From the NCBI RefSeq assembly GCF_003172895.1, contig NZ_QGKL01000035.1, positions 186,001 to 250,000 on the forward strand: 64,000 nucleotides of DNA, written 5' to 3'. Below, in pieces: positions 43,267 through 52,997 of this stretch. The position numbers and the translations under genes are program-made. The DNA comes from Leucothrix arctica (GTDB lineage: Bacteria > Pseudomonadota > Gammaproteobacteria > Thiotrichales > Thiotrichaceae). Position 1 is the first letter of the stretch, and each line of letters begins with the position of its first letter. Below the pieces are notes generated by a model that worked only from the letters and a program-made list of their open reading frames with translations, was not told the origin of the DNA and ran no database searches.

Positions 43267-44133
43267 TTATGAGAAACCAAGGCGTCTATAGCGGGCTAAC
43301 ATACTATTGTTTCCACTGACGCCGCCGTTGTGAATATAAAGTATCGGCAGGTCGCACTTCCAGTCTTTAAGTACTAGCCACGTTTTGGCATCGTACATCA
43401 GTTCAAACTCTATCCCACTTGCATTATTTAATGACTGGTATATCTCCAGTAACTCTGGGTAAGGCTTTCCAAAGTGATAAGGCTTTTCACTCTCTAAAAT
43501 AACTGGGTAGCGTGTTGCATTGGGGAGTAGCTGTTTAAATAGCTGCGTTAGCGTGTCTGAGTTACCAATACAGGGCACTGTGTAAACGGTATAAGGTAAA
43601 TGCTGTTGTAAATACAGCGCAGTCGTTCCAGTCCCTGACGGTTGAAAAATCGCGATATCTTCCAAGCTCTGCGTGTCACAAAACGTTTTAATCTCATCTG
43701 CCAGTTTTTGTATGCCGAGTTCTGCTTCGGGCATAGCTATGCCTTGCGGTATGTACAAAGTGTCCAATGAGGTTTCAGTGTTTAGTGGTAGGCCTGAATC
43801 GTTGATATGCCAAAGCATGCCACACGCTAACGCTTGTTTGAGGTTGCCATTCGGTGTCTGTTTTAACCACTTGGGCTGTGTGCGTGTGTAGTAGTGAAAT
43901 TCAATGTTAAGTAACTTGCAGAGTTGAGCGATAGCCAGCATTGCGTTTGACTGAGCGCCACCATGACTAATGACACGCTTGTAACTAGAGAGGTCATACG
44001 CGTCTAGTAGACCGTATAACTTACGCGCTTTATTGCCATTTAGTGGTGTGAGTAAGTCATCTCTTTTGACAAAGTAATCCCGTCCGGCAAAGTTAAAGCT
44101 ATCTATTGTTGAGTGTTGCCAGTGGATTTTCAT
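43267..44133 (-). CDS. PLP-dependent D-cysteine desulfhydrase/ACC deaminase-family protein
   Basis: A fold-type II PLP enzyme of 288 residues. The PLP lysine is in LNGNKARKLYGLL, and VISHGGAQSNAMLAIAQ is the phosphate/substrate loop of this family. The later FQPSGTGTTALYL is the phosphate-cup loop. Substrates in the family include D-cysteine and ACC; which applies here is unknown. Note that it is convergent with ribA. Confidence 0.85.
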   Translation of the reverse strand: MKIHWQHSTIDSFNFAGRDYFVKRDDLLTPLNGNKARKLYGLLDAYDLSSYKRVISHGGAQSNAMLAIAQLCKLLNIEFHYYTRTQPKWLKQTPNGNLKQALACGMLWHINDSGLPLNTETSLDTLYIPQGIAMPEAELGIQKLADEIKTFCDTQSLEDIAIFQPSGTGTTALYLQQHLPYTVYTVPCIGNSDTLTQLFKQLLPNATRYPVILESEKPYHFGKPYPELLEIYQSLNNASGIEFELMYDAKTWLVLKDWKCDLPILYIHNGGVSGNNSMLARYRRLGFS

Positions 44134-44852: not shown

Positions 44853-46655
44853 TTATTTGCACAATAAACCCGTTAACAGTGCCTCGTCATTTAGCCACTT
44901 CATACTGTCAGCATGTTTATCAATAAATGGGTTTCGAATACCGTGGTTCTTAAAAACCCATTCGTTATAAGCCACTTCCCATTTTGACGGCACATCGGTC
45001 TTTGCCCAGTGGACTAGCGTCTTAACATGCTCAAGATATAGCTCGTCTATTTCATAAACGAGTAACATATACAAAATAGCGCGTGCAATGTCGCCTTGTG
45101 AACGTTTTGGAACGACCCACTCTTCATCCGCATCCGTGCCGGTACTGGCGTAAGCATCGGGGTTTAGGTGAATATGTTCTGGGCGAACGATTTCATCACC
45201 ATGAAAATCAAACTGAAAACTTGAACGACGGGAGTTTAGCTTTCGGTCAGCAGGTACCCAGTTAAAGGGGTTAGTCTCCGCACCAAACCGAACATTGCGC
45301 GGTATGCGTTTGCGAATCATGTATTCTTGTAAAAAAGAACGAGGTACAATATGTTCAATAGTATGGCGCTTCTTTTGCACTAAAGTATCGACTGGGATAG
45401 AACCGTAAACAGACTTTACCCAGCCAAAATCATCATCAAAAAAGAAAGACCAAAACTGCTTCCACTTATCTTTTGATTTCAACTGACGGTAACTATTTCG
45501 AGACTCGTACACGCCACCAGCCGTTTCGATAAAAGCTAAACGTTCGCACTCGGTTGCTGCACCTTGTTTGGTCCAAATTTGCTTAGGCTTTTTCTTAACA
45601 ACTGCTTTTTTCTTAGGCTCGGGAGCCGTACAAGGAATAATCTCGATACATACTAAACCGTGGTCAGACTGCAACTTGTTATCAATGCTGTCGCCGCGAA
45701 TATGATGGTTAAAGACCTCATAATCACAGACTTCACCAATCGCATCTTTGTTGCGAGGGTTAAGCGCGTTAGATACTAGAATATGATCTAGAACATTCGG
45801 GTTACCCTGGTGCAAATGTGTGTATGGGCGCGCCTTAGAGCGAGCACTAGGCGCTAACGAAAAGCTGTCAAACAAGCGGCAGTCATGCAACGCACGCTTA
45901 CTTTCCTCAGGCCAATCGTCATAGTCCACGCCGCCAATGTCATAAGCCTTTTGACGCTGTGTAAGAATATCGAGTGGTGACGAATGTTCATCATCGTTTA
46001 AGTCACCCATGACCACGATCTTATTACAAACTTCGGATTGCGCCATCGCGTCATGATAGAGCAGCGTCGCTTCTAGACCCCGTTGAATCATAGACAGGGC
46101 ATCACCCCGTGCGCGACGCAGGAGGGTGTCTTTATAGCGCGCTTCCCAAGGTGTGGAGTCAGGGTAGGTGAGCTCCTTATCCATGACTGCACGTTTTGAC
46201 TTGAGGTGGACAACATAAACGACCACATCACCAATATCTGGCGTATCAATCACCGCTCGCACTGGCAGGCGGCTAAACTTAAACGCATCATCGATAGGAA
46301 GTACGTCGCTCGCATCAGCATTTTGATCAACCGTAGCGGTAGACTTGATAGGGAAGCGAGAAGCCAATGCAACAACAGGACTCGTCAGTACCGCACTGTC
46401 ATCGTCTAAAGCCTTTGGTGAGTCTACTGTGACAAAGTAAGGGTAACCGAGTCCGTTAACTAAGGTTTCTAGTACTTTAGGGCTGAACACTTCTTGAAAG
46501 CCGACGATGTCAGCGTCCATTTCTTTTAATTGATCGCTAACCCATTGTTGTTTTTTTTTCCATTCGCGTGACTGGTAGGTGTTTCTATCTTCACGCTCGT
46601 ACCAATATAAACCGTGCTCGGAAAATTGGTATAAATTAATGGTGGCAAGTTTCAT
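44853..46655 (-). CDS. Two-nuclease fusion: EEP domain plus endonuclease I domain
   Basis: A 600-residue protein. Residues 1-335 form an endonuclease/exonuclease/phosphatase domain (DADIVGFQEVF, VVMGDLNDDEHSSPL near residue 215, SDHGLVCIEI near 328). A Lys-rich linker (PKKKAVVKKKPKQ) follows. Residues about 395-590 match endonuclease I/EndA: IEHIVPRSFL (catalytic His near 433), NWVPADRKLNSRRSSFQF, QGDIARAILYMLLVYEID and GIRNPFIDKH. No signal peptide is visible, unlike most EndA or ExeM proteins. Function unknown; DNA degradation or a nutrient/defence role is inference. Confidence 0.8.
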   Translation of the reverse strand: MKLATINLYQFSEHGLYWYEREDRNTYQSREWKKKQQWVSDQLKEMDADIVGFQEVFSPKVLETLVNGLGYPYFVTVDSPKALDDDSAVLTSPVVALASRFPIKSTATVDQNADASDVLPIDDAFKFSRLPVRAVIDTPDIGDVVVYVVHLKSKRAVMDKELTYPDSTPWEARYKDTLLRRARGDALSMIQRGLEATLLYHDAMAQSEVCNKIVVMGDLNDDEHSSPLDILTQRQKAYDIGGVDYDDWPEESKRALHDCRLFDSFSLAPSARSKARPYTHLHQGNPNVLDHILVSNALNPRNKDAIGEVCDYEVFNHHIRGDSIDNKLQSDHGLVCIEIIPCTAPEPKKKAVVKKKPKQIWTKQGAATECERLAFIETAGGVYESRNSYRQLKSKDKWKQFWSFFFDDDFGWVKSVYGSIPVDTLVQKKRHTIEHIVPRSFLQEYMIRKRIPRNVRFGAETNPFNWVPADRKLNSRRSSFQFDFHGDEIVRPEHIHLNPDAYASTGTDADEEWVVPKRSQGDIARAILYMLLVYEIDELYLEHVKTLVHWAKTDVPSKWEVAYNEWVFKNHGIRNPFIDKHADSMKWLNDEALLTGLLCK

Positions 46656-46752
46656 TTAGCGTCAAATCCCTTATATTACTTTTCTCAAAAAAGTTGCGAC
46701 TTGTTAACGATGATGTTATCAACGGCACACGTTTATTTTTGATGAGTTAGTA

Positions 46753-47088
46753 ATGTTTAAAACATATGCAATTCTTGTAGTCGCCATTCTTGCTGAAATT
46801 ATCGCGGCTAATGCTTTGAAGTCGTCGAATCAGTTTACGCGTGTCTGGCCAACAGTCCTATCGCTCAGTTGTTATTGTGTTTCATTGTTCTTGTTAACGC
46901 TAGTTTTGAAAAAAATGTCACTAGGCATAACTTATGCGATTTGGTCAGGAATGGGTATTGTATTTGTGGCGATCATCGGTGTGCTTTGGCACAAAGAAGC
47001 ATTAGATATGCCTGCTGTTTTAGGGATGTTACTGATAATAGCGGGTGTTATGGTGATCAATTTATTTTCAAAGGTGGTTGGCAGCTAA
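46753..47088 (+). CDS. SMR-family small multidrug transporter
   Basis: A four-helix transporter of 111 residues. The essential glutamate is in AILAEIIAANALKSS (Glu14), and YAIWSGMGIVFVAIIGVLW is the family signature. EmrE-like proteins exchange protons for cationic drugs; some SMR proteins export guanidinium or lipids. The 3' end overlaps the convergent GGDEF/EAL gene by 21 bases. Confidence 0.9.
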   Translation: MFKTYAILVVAILAEIIAANALKSSNQFTRVWPTVLSLSCYCVSLFLLTLVLKKMSLGITYAIWSGMGIVFVAIIGVLWHKEALDMPAVLGMLLIIAGVMVINLFSKVVGS

Positions 47089-49557
47089 CAGTGGTCGTGA
47101 CTCTTGATGATCATCATCACCTTTTTGCTTGATCAGGTAAGTCTCAAACACTTCTGCTGAAACAGGCTTTGAGTAAAAGTACCCTTGTGCAAAGTCACAG
47201 CCACCGTCAGAGAGTAGCCACGCTTGCTCCTGCGTTTCTATACCTTCTGCAATAACCTGCATATCAAAAATGTGAGCGATCTTGATAATCTCTAAGCAAA
47301 GCGCCAAGTTCTTATCATTTCCAACAATATTAGATACAAAACTACGATCAATTTTTAAGTAATTACTTTTTAGGTTTTTCAAGTAAGCCAGGGATGAGTA
47401 ACCCGTACCGAAGTCATCTAGCGCCAATTGAACGCCACCATTTCTGAATGCATCTAACTTAGCACGCACTTTGCCGTCCAAATCAAGCATCAGATTTTCA
47501 GTGATTTCTACGACTAAAGACGTGTAGTCAACACCCAAAGTGTCCATGTATGCATACCAATCATTGACGATGCAGTCATTATGGTAATACTGGATGGGGG
47601 ATGTATTAACACTCAGTTGGAAGTTTGGCTCATACTTTTGTTGCCACTCAGCAAGCTGTTTAGTACCTTTCTGAAATACCCAATTACCAATGTCAACGAT
47701 CAAGCCGGTCTCTTCAGATAGCGGAATAACTTCGTCAGCACCCACTATGCCTCGTGTCGGGTGATTCCAACGGAGAAGGGCTTCAGCCTTAACAATTTTG
47801 CCTGACTCAAAGTCAATAATAGGTTGGTAGTACACCTCAAACTGTTCTTCTTTATAAGCTTCACGCAACTCATTAATTGAGCGCATTCTATTTTTAGCAA
47901 CGGTACGCATGTCTTGCGAAAAGTAGTTGTAACGATTACGTCCATTTTCTTTGGAAGCGTACATTGCTTGGTCAGCATTCATGATGAGAGTATCAATGTC
48001 CGCGGCATCTTCTGGATAATGCGTGATGCCGATACTGGCAGAAACGTGGAAGGTTTCAATGCCAATAACAAACGGTCTAGCAAGCTCCGACAACACATTG
48101 TCAGCAATATCTGCGATTATGTCTTTTCCTTTAGCATCCTCAAGCACAACGGTAAATTCATCACCCCCTAAGCGGGCTGCAATGCCGTGACCTTTTACAC
48201 AGGCGTTTAAGCGTTTGGCAGCTTCCTTAAGTAAGGAGTCTCCAAATTGATGACCGTGGGTATCATTAATGGTTTTAAAATTATCAAGGTCTAGTAGCAT
48301 AAGCACGATAGGGCCTATGTTCTTACGTTTATACCGTTGAATGGACTTGCTAAGCTCAGATTGAAATAAGCGCCGGTTAGGTAAGCCAGTCAGCAGGTCA
48401 ATATTCGCTTGTCTCCAAATCAGCGCCTCAGCATCTTTATGTGAAGTGATGTCGGTTTGTGTACCAACTACTCGAGCTGCTAAACCTAATTCATTTCTAC
48501 TAATCACCATGCCGCGAGACAGCGTCCAGACCCAACGGCCATCTTTGTGTTTAACGCGATGCTCCATGGAAAAAAAGTCAGTATCGCCTTTTAGGTGCTT
48601 AAGCATCGTCGCAGAGCAGGACGGTCTGTCTTTAGGATGAAGTACTTCTGTTGTCCACTTATCCATTGTGGTGATGAACTCACCTTCCTCGTAGCCCAGC
48701 GCGTTTAAAAACTGTTTAGAGAAATAAATATCATCACTCACAGGGTTCCAATCCCACACGCCATCACCTGAACCCTCAAGCGCGAACTTCCAGCGAGCTT
48801 CACTGGCAGAGAGTCCTTTTTGTACTTCTTTCTGAGCACTCTCAACCGCTTCTTGATAATTATTTATATCAAACAATAAGCGGTTAAAAGTCTTCGTTAA
48901 GTCACCAATCTCATCATCACTGTGTATTCTTTGCATATATTTCAGTGGGTTCTTTGGGTCAGCCAATAGGTTTTGAATATTACCTTTAAGATTTTGAATA
49001 GGGCGTAGCACTATCCAATATAAACCGGCTGTTGTGGTAACAGTCACAAATAGGCAAATCAGAGCGATAAGGCCTAATATATTAATAATGTGCTGTAACA
49101 GTTCTTCTTTAAAACTACTAATGTCTGTCCGTAAAACAAGCCAGTAAGGGTCATTGCCAGACATGATTTGTTTGGTTGTTTCTAGTCGTGTGTGATCTTT
49201 AGAAATCGAAGGAGCAGGAGACTTAAGTTTGATATTAGATGTGTTTACTGTCTCTCCAAACTTAATCGGGCAGTCAGTCATATTACAGACGGCATAACCC
49301 TTCACCAGCTCATGATGGCCTAGCAGACGGCTGTAAATTTCTGGGTCAGATACCTTGTTTTCATACTGCAGCGATGACTCTAGCGTAGAAATAAGAATAC
49401 TCGCATGACTCTCAGCCATCATCTCTTTATGATGCTTTTCAGTGAATAGTGAAGGCACTAAAATAATTATTTCAACAAGGACAATGCTCAGCATTACCGT
49501 ACTGGCAATCTTGAGATTGAGTCTTGATGAAAGTACTTTCTTAATTATTGAAGTCAT
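47068..49557 (-). CDS. PAS-GGDEF-EAL cyclic-di-GMP regulator
   Basis: An 829-residue membrane sensor: TM1 (about 17-37), a periplasmic sensing domain, TM2 (about 137-162), a HAMP segment (LTKTFNRLLFDINNYQ region), a PAS/PAC domain (EGSGDGVWDWNPVSDD to VVGTQTDITSHKDAE), GGDEF (ARLGGDEFTVVLE) and EAL (EALLRWNHP, DDFGTGYSSLAYLK, LKIDRSFV). Both catalytic motifs look intact. The RxxD inhibitory site before GGDEF is replaced by KGHG, so product inhibition is not expected. Confidence 0.92.
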   Translation of the reverse strand: MTSIIKKVLSSRLNLKIASTVMLSIVLVEIIILVPSLFTEKHHKEMMAESHASILISTLESSLQYENKVSDPEIYSRLLGHHELVKGYAVCNMTDCPIKFGETVNTSNIKLKSPAPSISKDHTRLETTKQIMSGNDPYWLVLRTDISSFKEELLQHIINILGLIALICLFVTVTTTAGLYWIVLRPIQNLKGNIQNLLADPKNPLKYMQRIHSDDEIGDLTKTFNRLLFDINNYQEAVESAQKEVQKGLSASEARWKFALEGSGDGVWDWNPVSDDIYFSKQFLNALGYEEGEFITTMDKWTTEVLHPKDRPSCSATMLKHLKGDTDFFSMEHRVKHKDGRWVWTLSRGMVISRNELGLAARVVGTQTDITSHKDAEALIWRQANIDLLTGLPNRRLFQSELSKSIQRYKRKNIGPIVLMLLDLDNFKTINDTHGHQFGDSLLKEAAKRLNACVKGHGIAARLGGDEFTVVLEDAKGKDIIADIADNVLSELARPFVIGIETFHVSASIGITHYPEDAADIDTLIMNADQAMYASKENGRNRYNYFSQDMRTVAKNRMRSINELREAYKEEQFEVYYQPIIDFESGKIVKAEALLRWNHPTRGIVGADEVIPLSEETGLIVDIGNWVFQKGTKQLAEWQQKYEPNFQLSVNTSPIQYYHNDCIVNDWYAYMDTLGVDYTSLVVEITENLMLDLDGKVRAKLDAFRNGGVQLALDDFGTGYSSLAYLKNLKSNYLKIDRSFVSNIVGNDKNLALCLEIIKIAHIFDMQVIAEGIETQEQAWLLSDGGCDFAQGYFYSKPVSAEVFETYLIKQKGDDDHQESRPLLAANHL

Positions 49558-49718: not shown

Positions 49719-52700
49719 ATGTTCGTCTTGCATACTTCAAACCGTGCTGAAAACTTGTTAGAACACCTGACGAAGATATTGGAGACACCTCAGCCATCCG
49801 TTTTTTCTAAAGAAGTTTTTTTGATTCAAAGTCAGGGCATGGAGCGTTGGTTGTCGCAGCAATTGGCAGAGCGTTCACAGTTATGGGCTAACTTTGAATA
49901 TCTGTTTCCAGCACGTTTCTTTAATGAAATGACCAATAAGCTTGGTTTGAGCTTGCAGCAACAAGCCTTTGGTCGTGAAAATATGCTGTGGCAGTTTGAA
50001 TCGATCTTACGCACTATTGACGCTGATGTTTATAAGCCAATCAACCAATATTTAACAGGTGTTTCGGTTGAACGCAAGCGTTATCAGTTAGCTCAACAAT
50101 TAGCCTATCTGTATGATCAATATCAATTTATGCGTCCTGATTGGCTCGCTACGTGGGAAAAAAACGAGAAAGTTGAGTTACAAAATCCGAGTGACATAAC
50201 CGACAGAACTCAGCTCTGGCAAGCTGAACTGTGGCGCGAACTCATTGGTAGGCAAGATGGCGAAGGCATTTCTCACCACGGTGAGCGTTGGAAGGATGCA
50301 ATCACAGAGCTAGAAACTCGCCGTCGAGGAGACCTAGAAAAGATACTTCCAGCCCGTATTTCGGTACTAGGAATCAACACATTATCGCCAATGTACCTCG
50401 CTTATTTGCAAGCATTGTCAAAACATATACAAGTTCACTTCTACCTTCTAAACCCTTGTGAAGCGTTTTGGGCGGAAAGTAACACAGCAGTGAAACACCA
50501 ATTACGCTTACAATCTATACAAGCGGGTCAAATACACGGGGTTGATGAAGCACCGATCAATCCTTTACTTGGAATGCTCGGGCAGCAAGGTCGAGACTTT
50601 CAAGTGTTGTTGTTGGAGCAAGAAGCCAATGAAATAGAGATTACCTCGTTTGATGCGGTCAAATCCACGGGTGAGCCTAGCCTACTTGAGCAACTGCAAA
50701 ACGACATCTTGTTTAATGAAGCTGGCGATACCAGTTTTCAGTTACAAGATGATGATTACAGTCTTTCGATACATGCCTGCCACTCGCGCTTACGTGAAGT
50801 AGAAGTCCTTAAAGATCAGTTGCTGGCAAGCTTTGACAAACATCCTGATCTCGACTTGCGAAATGTAGTGGTCATGGCACCTGACATTCAAACCTACTTA
50901 CCCTACATAGATGCGACTTTTGACGACATTCCTTATGCGGTGGCTGACCGAAGCTTGCGACAGAGCAACTTATTGCTCGATATATTGTTGCGCTTTTTTG
51001 ACCTCAGCCAAAGCCGTATGTTGTGGAACGAAGTCCTCGCGGTATTAGAAGAGCCTGCGGTACGAGAGCAGTTTGGACTGTTCGACGACGATATTCTTAT
51101 GGTCAGACACTGGGTTGAAGAAACCCGCATACGTTGGGGTGAGTCAGCGGAGCATCGTAAAGACATTGGTGTGGGTGAGTTTAGCGAAAACAGTTGGCAA
51201 GCAGGCTTGGAGCGTTTGCTCATGGGTTACGCCGTACCGAGTGACGCAGAGTTTTGTGATGACATACTACCGTATAGCGACATTGAAGGCTCACAGGCGC
51301 AAGCTTTAGGTGGTTTTTACAGCTACTTTAAACTGCTAAAAACAGCGCGTGCTGAGTTATCTAAAGACCGCACCTTAAAAGAGTGGGTTGAAAAGCTCAT
51401 AGGGTTTGCTGAGCAATTAATACTGCAAGACTCTGAAACCGAGTCACAGTGGGGACAGTTGCGAGAAATGTTTGAGCAACTGACTGAAGTTGCCGAAGAA
51501 CACACAGAAACACTGACCCTACAAGTGCTTATCGACTACCTAGAGTCCACGGCCAGCGAGTCTAAAACAGCCACAGGTTTCATGCGTGGCCAGCTGACTT
51601 TCTGCTCCATGTTACCGATGCGAGCGATTCCGTTTAGCGTGATTGGTTTGTTGGGCATGAATGAAGGTGAGTTCCCTAATATAGATGGCCGAGCAGCGTT
51701 TGACTTGATGGACAGCGAGTTCCGTCGTGGTGACCGTTCTCGTCGTGCGGATGAGCGTTATCAATTCCTTGAAACCTTGGTGTCGTCACGCAAGCAAATA
51801 CTTATTAGTTACATCGGGCAATCGATTAAAACCAATGATGAAATACCACCGTCGGTTGTGGTGTCTGAGTTGCTTGATGTGTTGGACCATTATTATCAAA
51901 TAGCGCCTGAAACAGTGGTGACTAAACACCCGCTGCAAGCATTTAGTCCACGCTACTTTGTGCCGCAAGATGACCCGCGTGTGAAGCTGTTTAGTTACTC
52001 TAAAACGGCTGCTGATGTAGCCATGCGCCTACAATCCAACACTAAACCTGACACCGAATTCTGGTGGAAAGGTGAGCTACAAAACCGCGAACCGCTTGAG
52101 CTTGCAGCTGACAGTAAAATGGTGATCGACCTTCAAGATCTGTTCCGTTTTTATAATCACCCGCAGCGTTACTTTGTTGAAAAGCACTTACAACTTCGCA
52201 TTCAACGACCTGAAGAATTAGCAGGGACGAGTGAGTCGTTTGAACTGGATAACTTAGAAAAGTTCTTTGTGAATCAGGAATGGCTAGCGCGACACTTGAG
52301 TGAGGATGGCGAGGCGGTTGGTCATGCCTTTTTGAAGCGACTACGTGCCGAAGGGCGCTGGCCTCATGGAGTCTTGGGTGACCAGCTTTTTGACAATATG
52401 TCAGGTGAGCTTTCAGGCTTTGTTGAGAAGCTACGCGAGCTAAACATTGGTAACAAGCACGAACCAACCTTAGTTGATTTTACCTTGGGTGACTACCGAC
52501 TGAAAGGCGCGTTGAGTAATGTTTATGATAATGGCAACCTGCTATATCGTTATGCGCGCTGTAAGCCTAAAGATAATATGACTGCATGGCTTAATCATCT
52601 GATTGGCCTGAATGCGCCAGAGGTTGAGGCTAACACCACTTACATGATGCACATGGATGGTTACTGGAAGTTTGATGAAGTGGCTGACAGTGAGAGTCGG

Positions 52701-52997
52701 TTACTGGCGCTGCTAGATGCTTACAAAACTGCGCAATCTGGTTTGAGTCCATTGTTATTAGAGCCAGCTTTTGCTTGGGTGACGCGAGAGCTAAATGCCA
52801 AATCACGCTCCAAGAAGACACCTCAAGACGAAGCATTGGCAACACTTGAAACTACTTATGGACAGGATAGTTATTGGCAGCTTTTATATCGTGGTGGTGA
52901 TGTGAGTGAACTGCTCGAAGCTGAGGCGTTTAAGCATCTAACAGAGAGCTTGGTAAAGCCTTTGCTGACTTCGCGCAGTGGTATTAACGACACGTAA
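49719..52997 (+). CDS. recC: Exodeoxyribonuclease V gamma subunit
   Basis: RecC is the Chi-recognising subunit of RecBCD. The 1092 residues are near the family length. Family patterns are the start FVLHTSNRAENLLEHL, QSQGMERWLSQQLAE, the ISVLGINTLSPMYLAYLQAL segment, and MRAIPFSVIGLLGMNEGEFP late in the protein. No recB, recD or ptrA follows; a strong terminator is right after the stop. The other subunits must lie elsewhere. Confidence 0.93.
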   Translation: MFVLHTSNRAENLLEHLTKILETPQPSVFSKEVFLIQSQGMERWLSQQLAERSQLWANFEYLFPARFFNEMTNKLGLSLQQQAFGRENMLWQFESILRTIDADVYKPINQYLTGVSVERKRYQLAQQLAYLYDQYQFMRPDWLATWEKNEKVELQNPSDITDRTQLWQAELWRELIGRQDGEGISHHGERWKDAITELETRRRGDLEKILPARISVLGINTLSPMYLAYLQALSKHIQVHFYLLNPCEAFWAESNTAVKHQLRLQSIQAGQIHGVDEAPINPLLGMLGQQGRDFQVLLLEQEANEIEITSFDAVKSTGEPSLLEQLQNDILFNEAGDTSFQLQDDDYSLSIHACHSRLREVEVLKDQLLASFDKHPDLDLRNVVVMAPDIQTYLPYIDATFDDIPYAVADRSLRQSNLLLDILLRFFDLSQSRMLWNEVLAVLEEPAVREQFGLFDDDILMVRHWVEETRIRWGESAEHRKDIGVGEFSENSWQAGLERLLMGYAVPSDAEFCDDILPYSDIEGSQAQALGGFYSYFKLLKTARAELSKDRTLKEWVEKLIGFAEQLILQDSETESQWGQLREMFEQLTEVAEEHTETLTLQVLIDYLESTASESKTATGFMRGQLTFCSMLPMRAIPFSVIGLLGMNEGEFPNIDGRAAFDLMDSEFRRGDRSRRADERYQFLETLVSSRKQILISYIGQSIKTNDEIPPSVVVSELLDVLDHYYQIAPETVVTKHPLQAFSPRYFVPQDDPRVKLFSYSKTAADVAMRLQSNTKPDTEFWWKGELQNREPLELAADSKMVIDLQDLFRFYNHPQRYFVEKHLQLRIQRPEELAGTSESFELDNLEKFFVNQEWLARHLSEDGEAVGHAFLKRLRAEGRWPHGVLGDQLFDNMSGELSGFVEKLRELNIGNKHEPTLVDFTLGDYRLKGALSNVYDNGNLLYRYARCKPKDNMTAWLNHLIGLNAPEVEANTTYMMHMDGYWKFDEVADSESRLLALLDAYKTAQSGLSPLLLEPAFAWVTRELNAKSRSKKTPQDEALATLETTYGQDSYWQLLYRGGDVSELLEAEAFKHLTESLVKPLLTSRSGINDT

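Follow-up and report, generated by a model that had tools for sequence, protein, structure and literature searches.

An apparently leaderless fusion of an EEP domain and an Endonuclease I domain in Leucothrix and its relatives, with a possible role in intracellular nucleic acid turnover

Can a protein that joins two nucleases, and that carries no recognisable export signal, be kept inside a bacterial cell, and what would it do there? The question is raised by a gene of Leucothrix arctica that lies at 44853..46655 on the minus strand of the window, i.e., the 64,000-nucleotide stretch of DNA analysed in this study. The gene, delimited by its ORF, Pfam matches and orthologues, encodes a 600-aa fusion of an N-terminal EEP domain and a C-terminal Endonuclease I (EndoI) domain. 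Both nuclease families are usually exported, and it is for exported enzymes that the EndoI type is best known. An EndoI half that is conserved, leaderless and poor in cysteines, and that is accompanied by a second nuclease, departs from the export-then-fold pattern, and raises the question of how the cell tolerates such a nuclease and protects its chromosome.

Domain architecture and conservation of the active sites

The ORF starts with ATG and its frame runs without internal stops in the genome search. Two Pfam families matched the protein above their gathering cut-offs: PF03372 at residues 37-308 (E 9.6e-14, 52.1 bits against a cut-off of 24.5) and PF04231 at residues 431-580 (E 1.7e-13, 51.3 bits against a cut-off of 25). 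The NCBIfam matches were sub-threshold only, to ExeM/NucH and deoxyribonuclease I, and PHROGs gave a single weak match (E 0.013). The EEP domain occupies approximately residues 1-341 (45633..46655, minus strand), as judged from PF03372, pLDDT, structure matches and invariant residues, and its key residues are N7, E55, H150, D218, N220, D290, D331 and H332. The EndoI domain, of the beta-beta-alpha-metal type, spans approximately residues 372-600 (44856..45542, minus strand) according to PF04231, the model and structure matches, with the key residues E434, H435 and N474. The two are connected by a variable linker of about residues 342-371 (45543..45632, minus strand), which was recognised from the alignment and from pLDDT values below 50 at residues 349-365. 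An earlier reading of the sequence alone (the sequence-only reading) had described this linker as Lys-rich; it is indeed Lys/Arg-rich here and partly so in other Leucothrix, but its length and letters differ elsewhere, so that the enrichment is no family trait. The motifs quoted for both domains in that reading are present in the ORF.

In the full-length structural model the EEP half had pLDDT values mostly above 90, whereas the EndoI half was of low confidence, so that this model does not fix the relative placing of the two sites. When the EndoI half was modelled alone with a deeper alignment, the mean pLDDT was 84 and the pTM 0.84. This model matched six Endonuclease I entries at Z 16.4-16.8 (rmsd 2.9-3.1 over 177-182 aligned residues), and the next structures, mostly HNH domains of Cas9, followed at Z of 3.8 or less. 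The EEP-half model matched solved EEP enzymes at Z 22-24 (50 matches listed); for Bacteroides EEP, Nocturnin, sphingomyelinase, Neisseria NExo, Tdp2 and ExoIII alike, the best of the listed matches fell within Z 22.9-24.3. The ranking of this predicted structure does not single out a subfamily for the EEP half, which may also belong to a family outside the matches listed. Thus, structure prediction recovered the EEP and the EndoI fold (Z 22-24 and 16.4-16.8, respectively) in agreement with Pfam, and the claim that two unrelated nuclease folds are present in one protein was borne out.

The predicted fold and the centre of E, H and N are common to the EndoI half and to Endonuclease I (PF04231; Vibrio Vvn/EndA/Dns), although its identity to the solved Endonuclease I enzymes is 20-23%. 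Likewise, the EEP half shares its predicted fold and catalytic set with the EEP superfamily (PF03372). The sequence-only reading did not know the combination as a described enzyme, and we found no account of a PF03372 plus PF04231 architecture in the open-licence PMC literature; both families are named, but in separate proteins, in passages of PMC3852671, and they are listed in separate proteins in parts of PMC3593177.

Altogether 17 catalytic or flanking positions in the two halves were identical in all 24 aligned fused proteins (the 24-row alignment leaves out L007/L025, which is cut at its contig start; L036 has unreadable letters). In the EndoI half, E434, H435 and N474 were invariant in 24/24 and are the alignment equivalents of E79, H80 and N127, the centre of Vibrio EndA according to passages of PMC5305256. 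The same E, H and N were invariant in all 50 EndoI domains of an alignment to which other EndoI proteins contributed 32. In the EEP half, the catalytic Glu E55, the Asp-x-Asn pair D218/N220 and the terminal D331-H332 were also invariant in the 24 fused proteins. The active sites of Xds and CNOT6L are listed with E, D, N and H in parts of PMC6746945, and E55, D218, N220 and H332 correspond to these by motif order, not by superposition. A loss of catalytic residues was thus rejected on the basis of the fused-protein and EndoI-domain alignments, and the view that both active sites are intact was upheld.

Both halves are under purifying selection. The dN/dS ratio was 0.05-0.09 for the EEP half (computable in 7/8 pairs) and 0.02-0.03 for the EndoI half (6/8 pairs), these being simple Nei-Gojobori counts with several pairs near saturation and with members shared between pairs. 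The ratio was not computable for saturated pairs (EEP 1/8, EndoI 2/8 and linker 4/8), and one further linker value was zero. The EndoI ratio was two to four times lower than that of EEP in the six pairs where both could be computed, which could mean that one half is the catalyst, while the other chiefly binds nucleic acid and retains a relic active site; the occurrence of the EndoI half alone in Desulfogranum japonicum and of the EEP half alone in many genera also fits such a division. Nevertheless, the catalytic positions checked in both halves are all invariant in 24/24 proteins, and we consider a single active half rather improbable.

Leader, cysteines and cellular location

Directly before the ATG of the fusion gene stands an in-frame TAA, and a ribosome-site-like AAGGGA is located 11 nt upstream of the ATG (46656..46679, minus strand). 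Because the TAA immediately precedes the start codon, we rejected the presence of an N-terminal leader hidden upstream. Among the 17 fused genes examined, an in-frame stop within 200 bases upstream was absent in two (L032 and L033). The best 12-residue hydrophobicity within the first 40 residues, counted from the conserved Met, was at most 1.21 in 24/24 fused proteins and at least 1.5 at 27 of 29 further gammaproteobacterial EndoI loci for which an ORF was recognised; this is a crude measure, not a signal-peptide predictor, and at the comparison loci the Met start that gave the highest hydrophobicity ahead of the motif was used. The comparison set comprised 30 loci of a larger match list, in which L140 gave no ORF and a wrong start was chosen for L142/L002, and the spurious extra frames of L146 and L154 were left out of the 29-locus count. 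The sequence-only reading had seen no signal peptide in the single sequence; by this measure, none of the 24 fused proteins has a hydrophobic N-terminus.

The EndoI half contains no cysteine in 15 of the fused proteins, one in eight and two in one, which means that in 23 of the 24 no disulfide is possible within that half. In the comparison EndoI set the number of cysteines ranged from 1 to 9. Passages of PMC6085458 describe several bacterial nucleases whose active fold forms only once they have been exported, an effect that disulfides can produce. However, few cysteines alone are no proof of a cytoplasmic home, because exported-looking EndoI domains with one (L138) or two cysteines (L134-L136) were also found. 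Other leaderless-looking EndoI proteins were encountered as well (L161, L019-L021 and a Thiothrix trypsin-EndoI protein), and thus neither the leaderless nor the cysteine-poor trait is unique to the EndoI half of the fusion. The Thiothrix protein (583 aa; G025, L170:1960-3711, minus strand) combines a trypsin-like protease domain (PF13365) with Endonuclease I (PF04231) and has no evident leader. Its protease part weakly matches the PADLOC RT-protease model, and a similar protein is perhaps also present in G077 (L171).

In contrast to the Vibrio enzymes Vvn/EndA/Dns, the EndoI half of the fusion has no leader, contains 0-2 cysteines and is joined to an EEP domain. From these sequence features we infer that the fusion protein is located in the cytoplasm. 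We consider it probable that the protein is leaderless and possesses two working active sites. If active, such a two-site nuclease, being free of disulfides, could be produced in a reducing cytoplasm or find use in vitro.

Given that both families are usually exported, the protein could instead leave the cell by a leaderless route and, like EndA, Dns, ExeM or Xds, have extracellular DNA as its substrate. In NCBIfam the EEP half came closest to the ExeM/NucH model NF033681, though far below the cut-off (40.1 bits against 300), and the fusion differs from ExeM/NucH in having no leader and in carrying EndoI as the sole other domain above the Pfam cut-off. The ATG without an upstream leader and the cysteine-poor EndoI half speak against such export, and the extracellular role looks filled in the same genome by a separate EndoI (L002:946-2541) and by an ExeM/NucH-type EEP that scores above the cut-off. 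Hence, we give little credence to leaderless export. The separate EndoI has a hydrophobic N-terminus and eight cysteines in its ORF, four of them in the domain; it also carries a hydrophobic stretch resembling a membrane anchor, and a C-terminal repeat appears ricin-like by eye.

Distribution and origin of the fusion

A search of genome contigs with the single protein gave no match, and relatives were found by an alignment-based search. Orthologues are present in Leucothrix, Thiothrix, Thiolinea and Thiofilum, four genera that we take to be filamentous, and in one Cellvibrionaceae MAG, the fusion of which is 47% identical (named-genome scan, best 80 of 321 relatives). The fusion was full or nearly full in 16 of 57 genomes, including the source genome, and the carrier loci agreed in contig and position with Leucothrix pacifica NZ_QGKM01000060.1, Thiofilum flexile, Thiolinea disciformis and named Thiothrix records. 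Across the order, 27/63 genomes matched, two of the matches being incomplete (G001 and G073). Carriers were 6/7 genomes in Leucothrix, 14/16 in Thiothrix, 1/1 in Thiofilum and 6/9 in the genus of Thiolinea, and the four other genera of the order had none (0/30 genomes). The sole Leucothrix genome without a match is 64% complete. Both of the Thiothrix genomes that have no fusion gene are at least 99% complete, which implies that the gene is dispensable.

When an even sample of 369 Gammaproteobacteria was searched, the fusion was detected in three genomes, all of the same family, and seven more matched with the EEP half or a part of it; at most three candidates were scored per genome, so that EEP-only relatives are under-counted here. 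The named-genome scan, which keeps the best 80 of 321 relatives and is no census, comprised 79 loci, of which 17 were fused, 61 were EEP only and one was EndoI only. EEP-only relatives are common and occur in many genera. The stand-alone EEP proteins of Vibrio, Photobacterium, Colwellia, Shewanella, Arcobacter, Rhodobacterales and others share 31-46% identity with the EEP half along its whole length or the greater part of it (best 80 of 321), but unlike the fusion their gene has no EndoI half. Most of the eight N-termini read among them had no clear leader, that of L056 being ambiguous. No EndoI profile was found near the EEP-only gene in the flanking stretches of the 61 EEP-only loci (best 80 of 321), and a split two-gene form was therefore rejected.

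With a profile of the EndoI half, the source genome was the sole match among 398 genomes of its phylum, a sample that by chance contained no other fusion carrier and is thus no measure of frequency, and Desulfogranum was the sole match among 297 genomes of its phylum. Within the searches made, the EndoI subfamily appeared outside fusions only in Desulfogranum japonicum. Its 257-aa protein (L041:6001-6756) is 51-53% identical to the EndoI half of the fusion and stands alone; the genome has no EEP match to the fusion protein at E 1 or better. The gene was perhaps acquired from a fusion-bearing lineage.

Could the fusion be a product of gene prediction, of assembly or of chance? Genomes from several genera, each assembled separately, have the frame open across the linker, and orthologous fusions occur in independent genomes, which practically excludes this explanation. 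In the EEP tree the fused EEPs lie on one side of a branch with support of 93/89, recovered in 94% of 200 bootstrap trees, and the EEP-only genes of two Rhodobacterales MAGs adjoin them (94/93). As the fused EEPs form one clade, one fusion fits the tree. The EndoI tree places the Desulfogranum protein within the fused set, as the partner of the Cellvibrionaceae fusion (94/85). These placements, with moderate support and both branches long, hint at a single fusion event, the EEP half having been lost later, when the gene passed to Desulfogranum. Within the Leucothrix/Thiothrix lineage the fusion gene has been maintained by descent.

Mobile elements were also considered as a source. Phage records gave no match to the fusion and no candidate of a pattern scan of viral contigs was confirmed, and thus a phage origin was rejected. 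Of 28 plasmid records, none of the 20 listed matched with more than the EEP half, and none of the 28 reached 80% coverage.

Gene neighbourhood and proposed function

A survey of the neighbouring genes across genomes revealed no partner gene conserved between genera. A co-directional neighbour close enough for a shared transcript was present in L023, L030 and L033, but its identity differed from case to case. Upstream of the fusion gene, a recC homologue of opposite orientation is found in the window (49719-52997, plus strand; the window copy was checked with Pfam) and in L022, L023 and L024, i.e., in 4/4 uncut Leucothrix loci (L004, with a 1.5-kb flank, was left out of this count), and it is adjacent to the fusion gene in L024. 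In one Thiothrix the fusion gene is situated between the genes for uracil-DNA glycosylase and MutS, the ORFs in between being short and perhaps spurious. Elsewhere, the neighbours include isocitrate dehydrogenase, ClpA-like, PrkA and ProS-like genes (20 neighbours chosen), and the remaining scanned neighbours were ordinary genes or had no family. This neighbourhood leans weakly towards DNA maintenance, and the link to repair is weak because the neighbours are not conserved between genera. The SOS box CTG-N10-CAG was absent within 200 bases upstream of all 17 fused genes examined, and SOS control was accordingly rejected.

We consider it moderately likely that the fusion is a leaderless cytoplasmic nuclease with two active sites, serving the housekeeping turnover or repair of intracellular nucleic acid. 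We infer catalytic activity, a cooperation between the sites and the role from the data above, and the turnover or repair role taken by itself is a tentative assignment. The EndoI half would cut DNA, and perhaps RNA, internally and without sequence preference, with His435 as the presumed general base and Glu434 and Asn474 as the metal ligands of its centre. The EEP half could then hydrolyse phosphodiesters at the ends or nicks made by the EndoI half, and the two together would reduce nucleic acid to short pieces or nucleotides. The substrate may be intracellular DNA that is damaged, foreign or surplus, which would be degraded or repaired as a housekeeping task. The source genome already has two ExoIII-type genes, and we therefore rejected the idea that the EEP half replaces a missing repair enzyme of that type. 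A point against the housekeeping reading is that a free unspecific cytoplasmic nuclease would put the chromosome at risk, and among the neighbours no gene for an inhibitor was recognised.

Alternatively, the protein could be an intracellular defence or suicide nuclease that is silent until phage infection or damage and then shreds nucleic acid. The leaderless EndoI domain is compatible with such a function, as is the leaderless-looking Thiothrix protease-EndoI protein with its weak resemblance to a defence model. However, no PADLOC 2.0.0 family matched the fusion protein itself at E up to 1. Among ten neighbours in the window, the only such matches were those of a DEAD-box helicase to many defence helicases and, weakly, of a PAPS-reductase-like protein to BrxP, but in both cases the ordinary Pfam family fits better. 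Moreover, the gene is inherited by descent, constrained and placed among ordinary chromosomal genes, and the phage, viral and plasmid searches described above do not connect it with mobile elements. A defence or suicide role thus seems unlikely. A highly speculative reading, which we regard as a long shot, is that the EndoI fold was adapted to the reducing cytoplasm and combined with an EEP exonuclease into a disulfide-free "shredder" for the controlled destruction of self DNA, e.g., in cells sacrificed at filament breakage. The housekeeping reading is retained here as the preferred one.

Several further associations were observed around the fused and EEP-only genes. A 288-aa ORF of the window (43267-44133, minus strand) gave no listed match to Pfam at E up to 1; a motif in it presumably resembles that of a PLP-dependent ACC-deaminase/desulfhydrase-type enzyme. 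A GGDEF-EAL gene is located upstream of the fusion in the same direction in three Leucothrix loci (47068-49557 in the window, L022 and L023), and it is adjacent in L023. Among the EEP-only relatives, the neighbours were counted at 59 loci, the EEP ORFs of L045 and L064 having been removed by the overlap filter (best 80 of 321 relatives). At six of these, of the Arcobacter type (L052, L053, L065, L066, L067 and L094), the EEP-only gene directly follows the gene of a GGDEF protein, the L053 copy of which was checked with Pfam. The GGDEF association is possibly due to chance. At ten of the 59 loci (L054, L056, L063, L068, L070, L071, L085, L089, L092 and L099; only L056 Pfam-checked), from two lineages (Photobacterium and two Colwellia loci), a DnaQ-like 3'-5' exonuclease gene precedes the EEP-only relative in the same direction, and in L099 a small overlapping ORF lies between the two.
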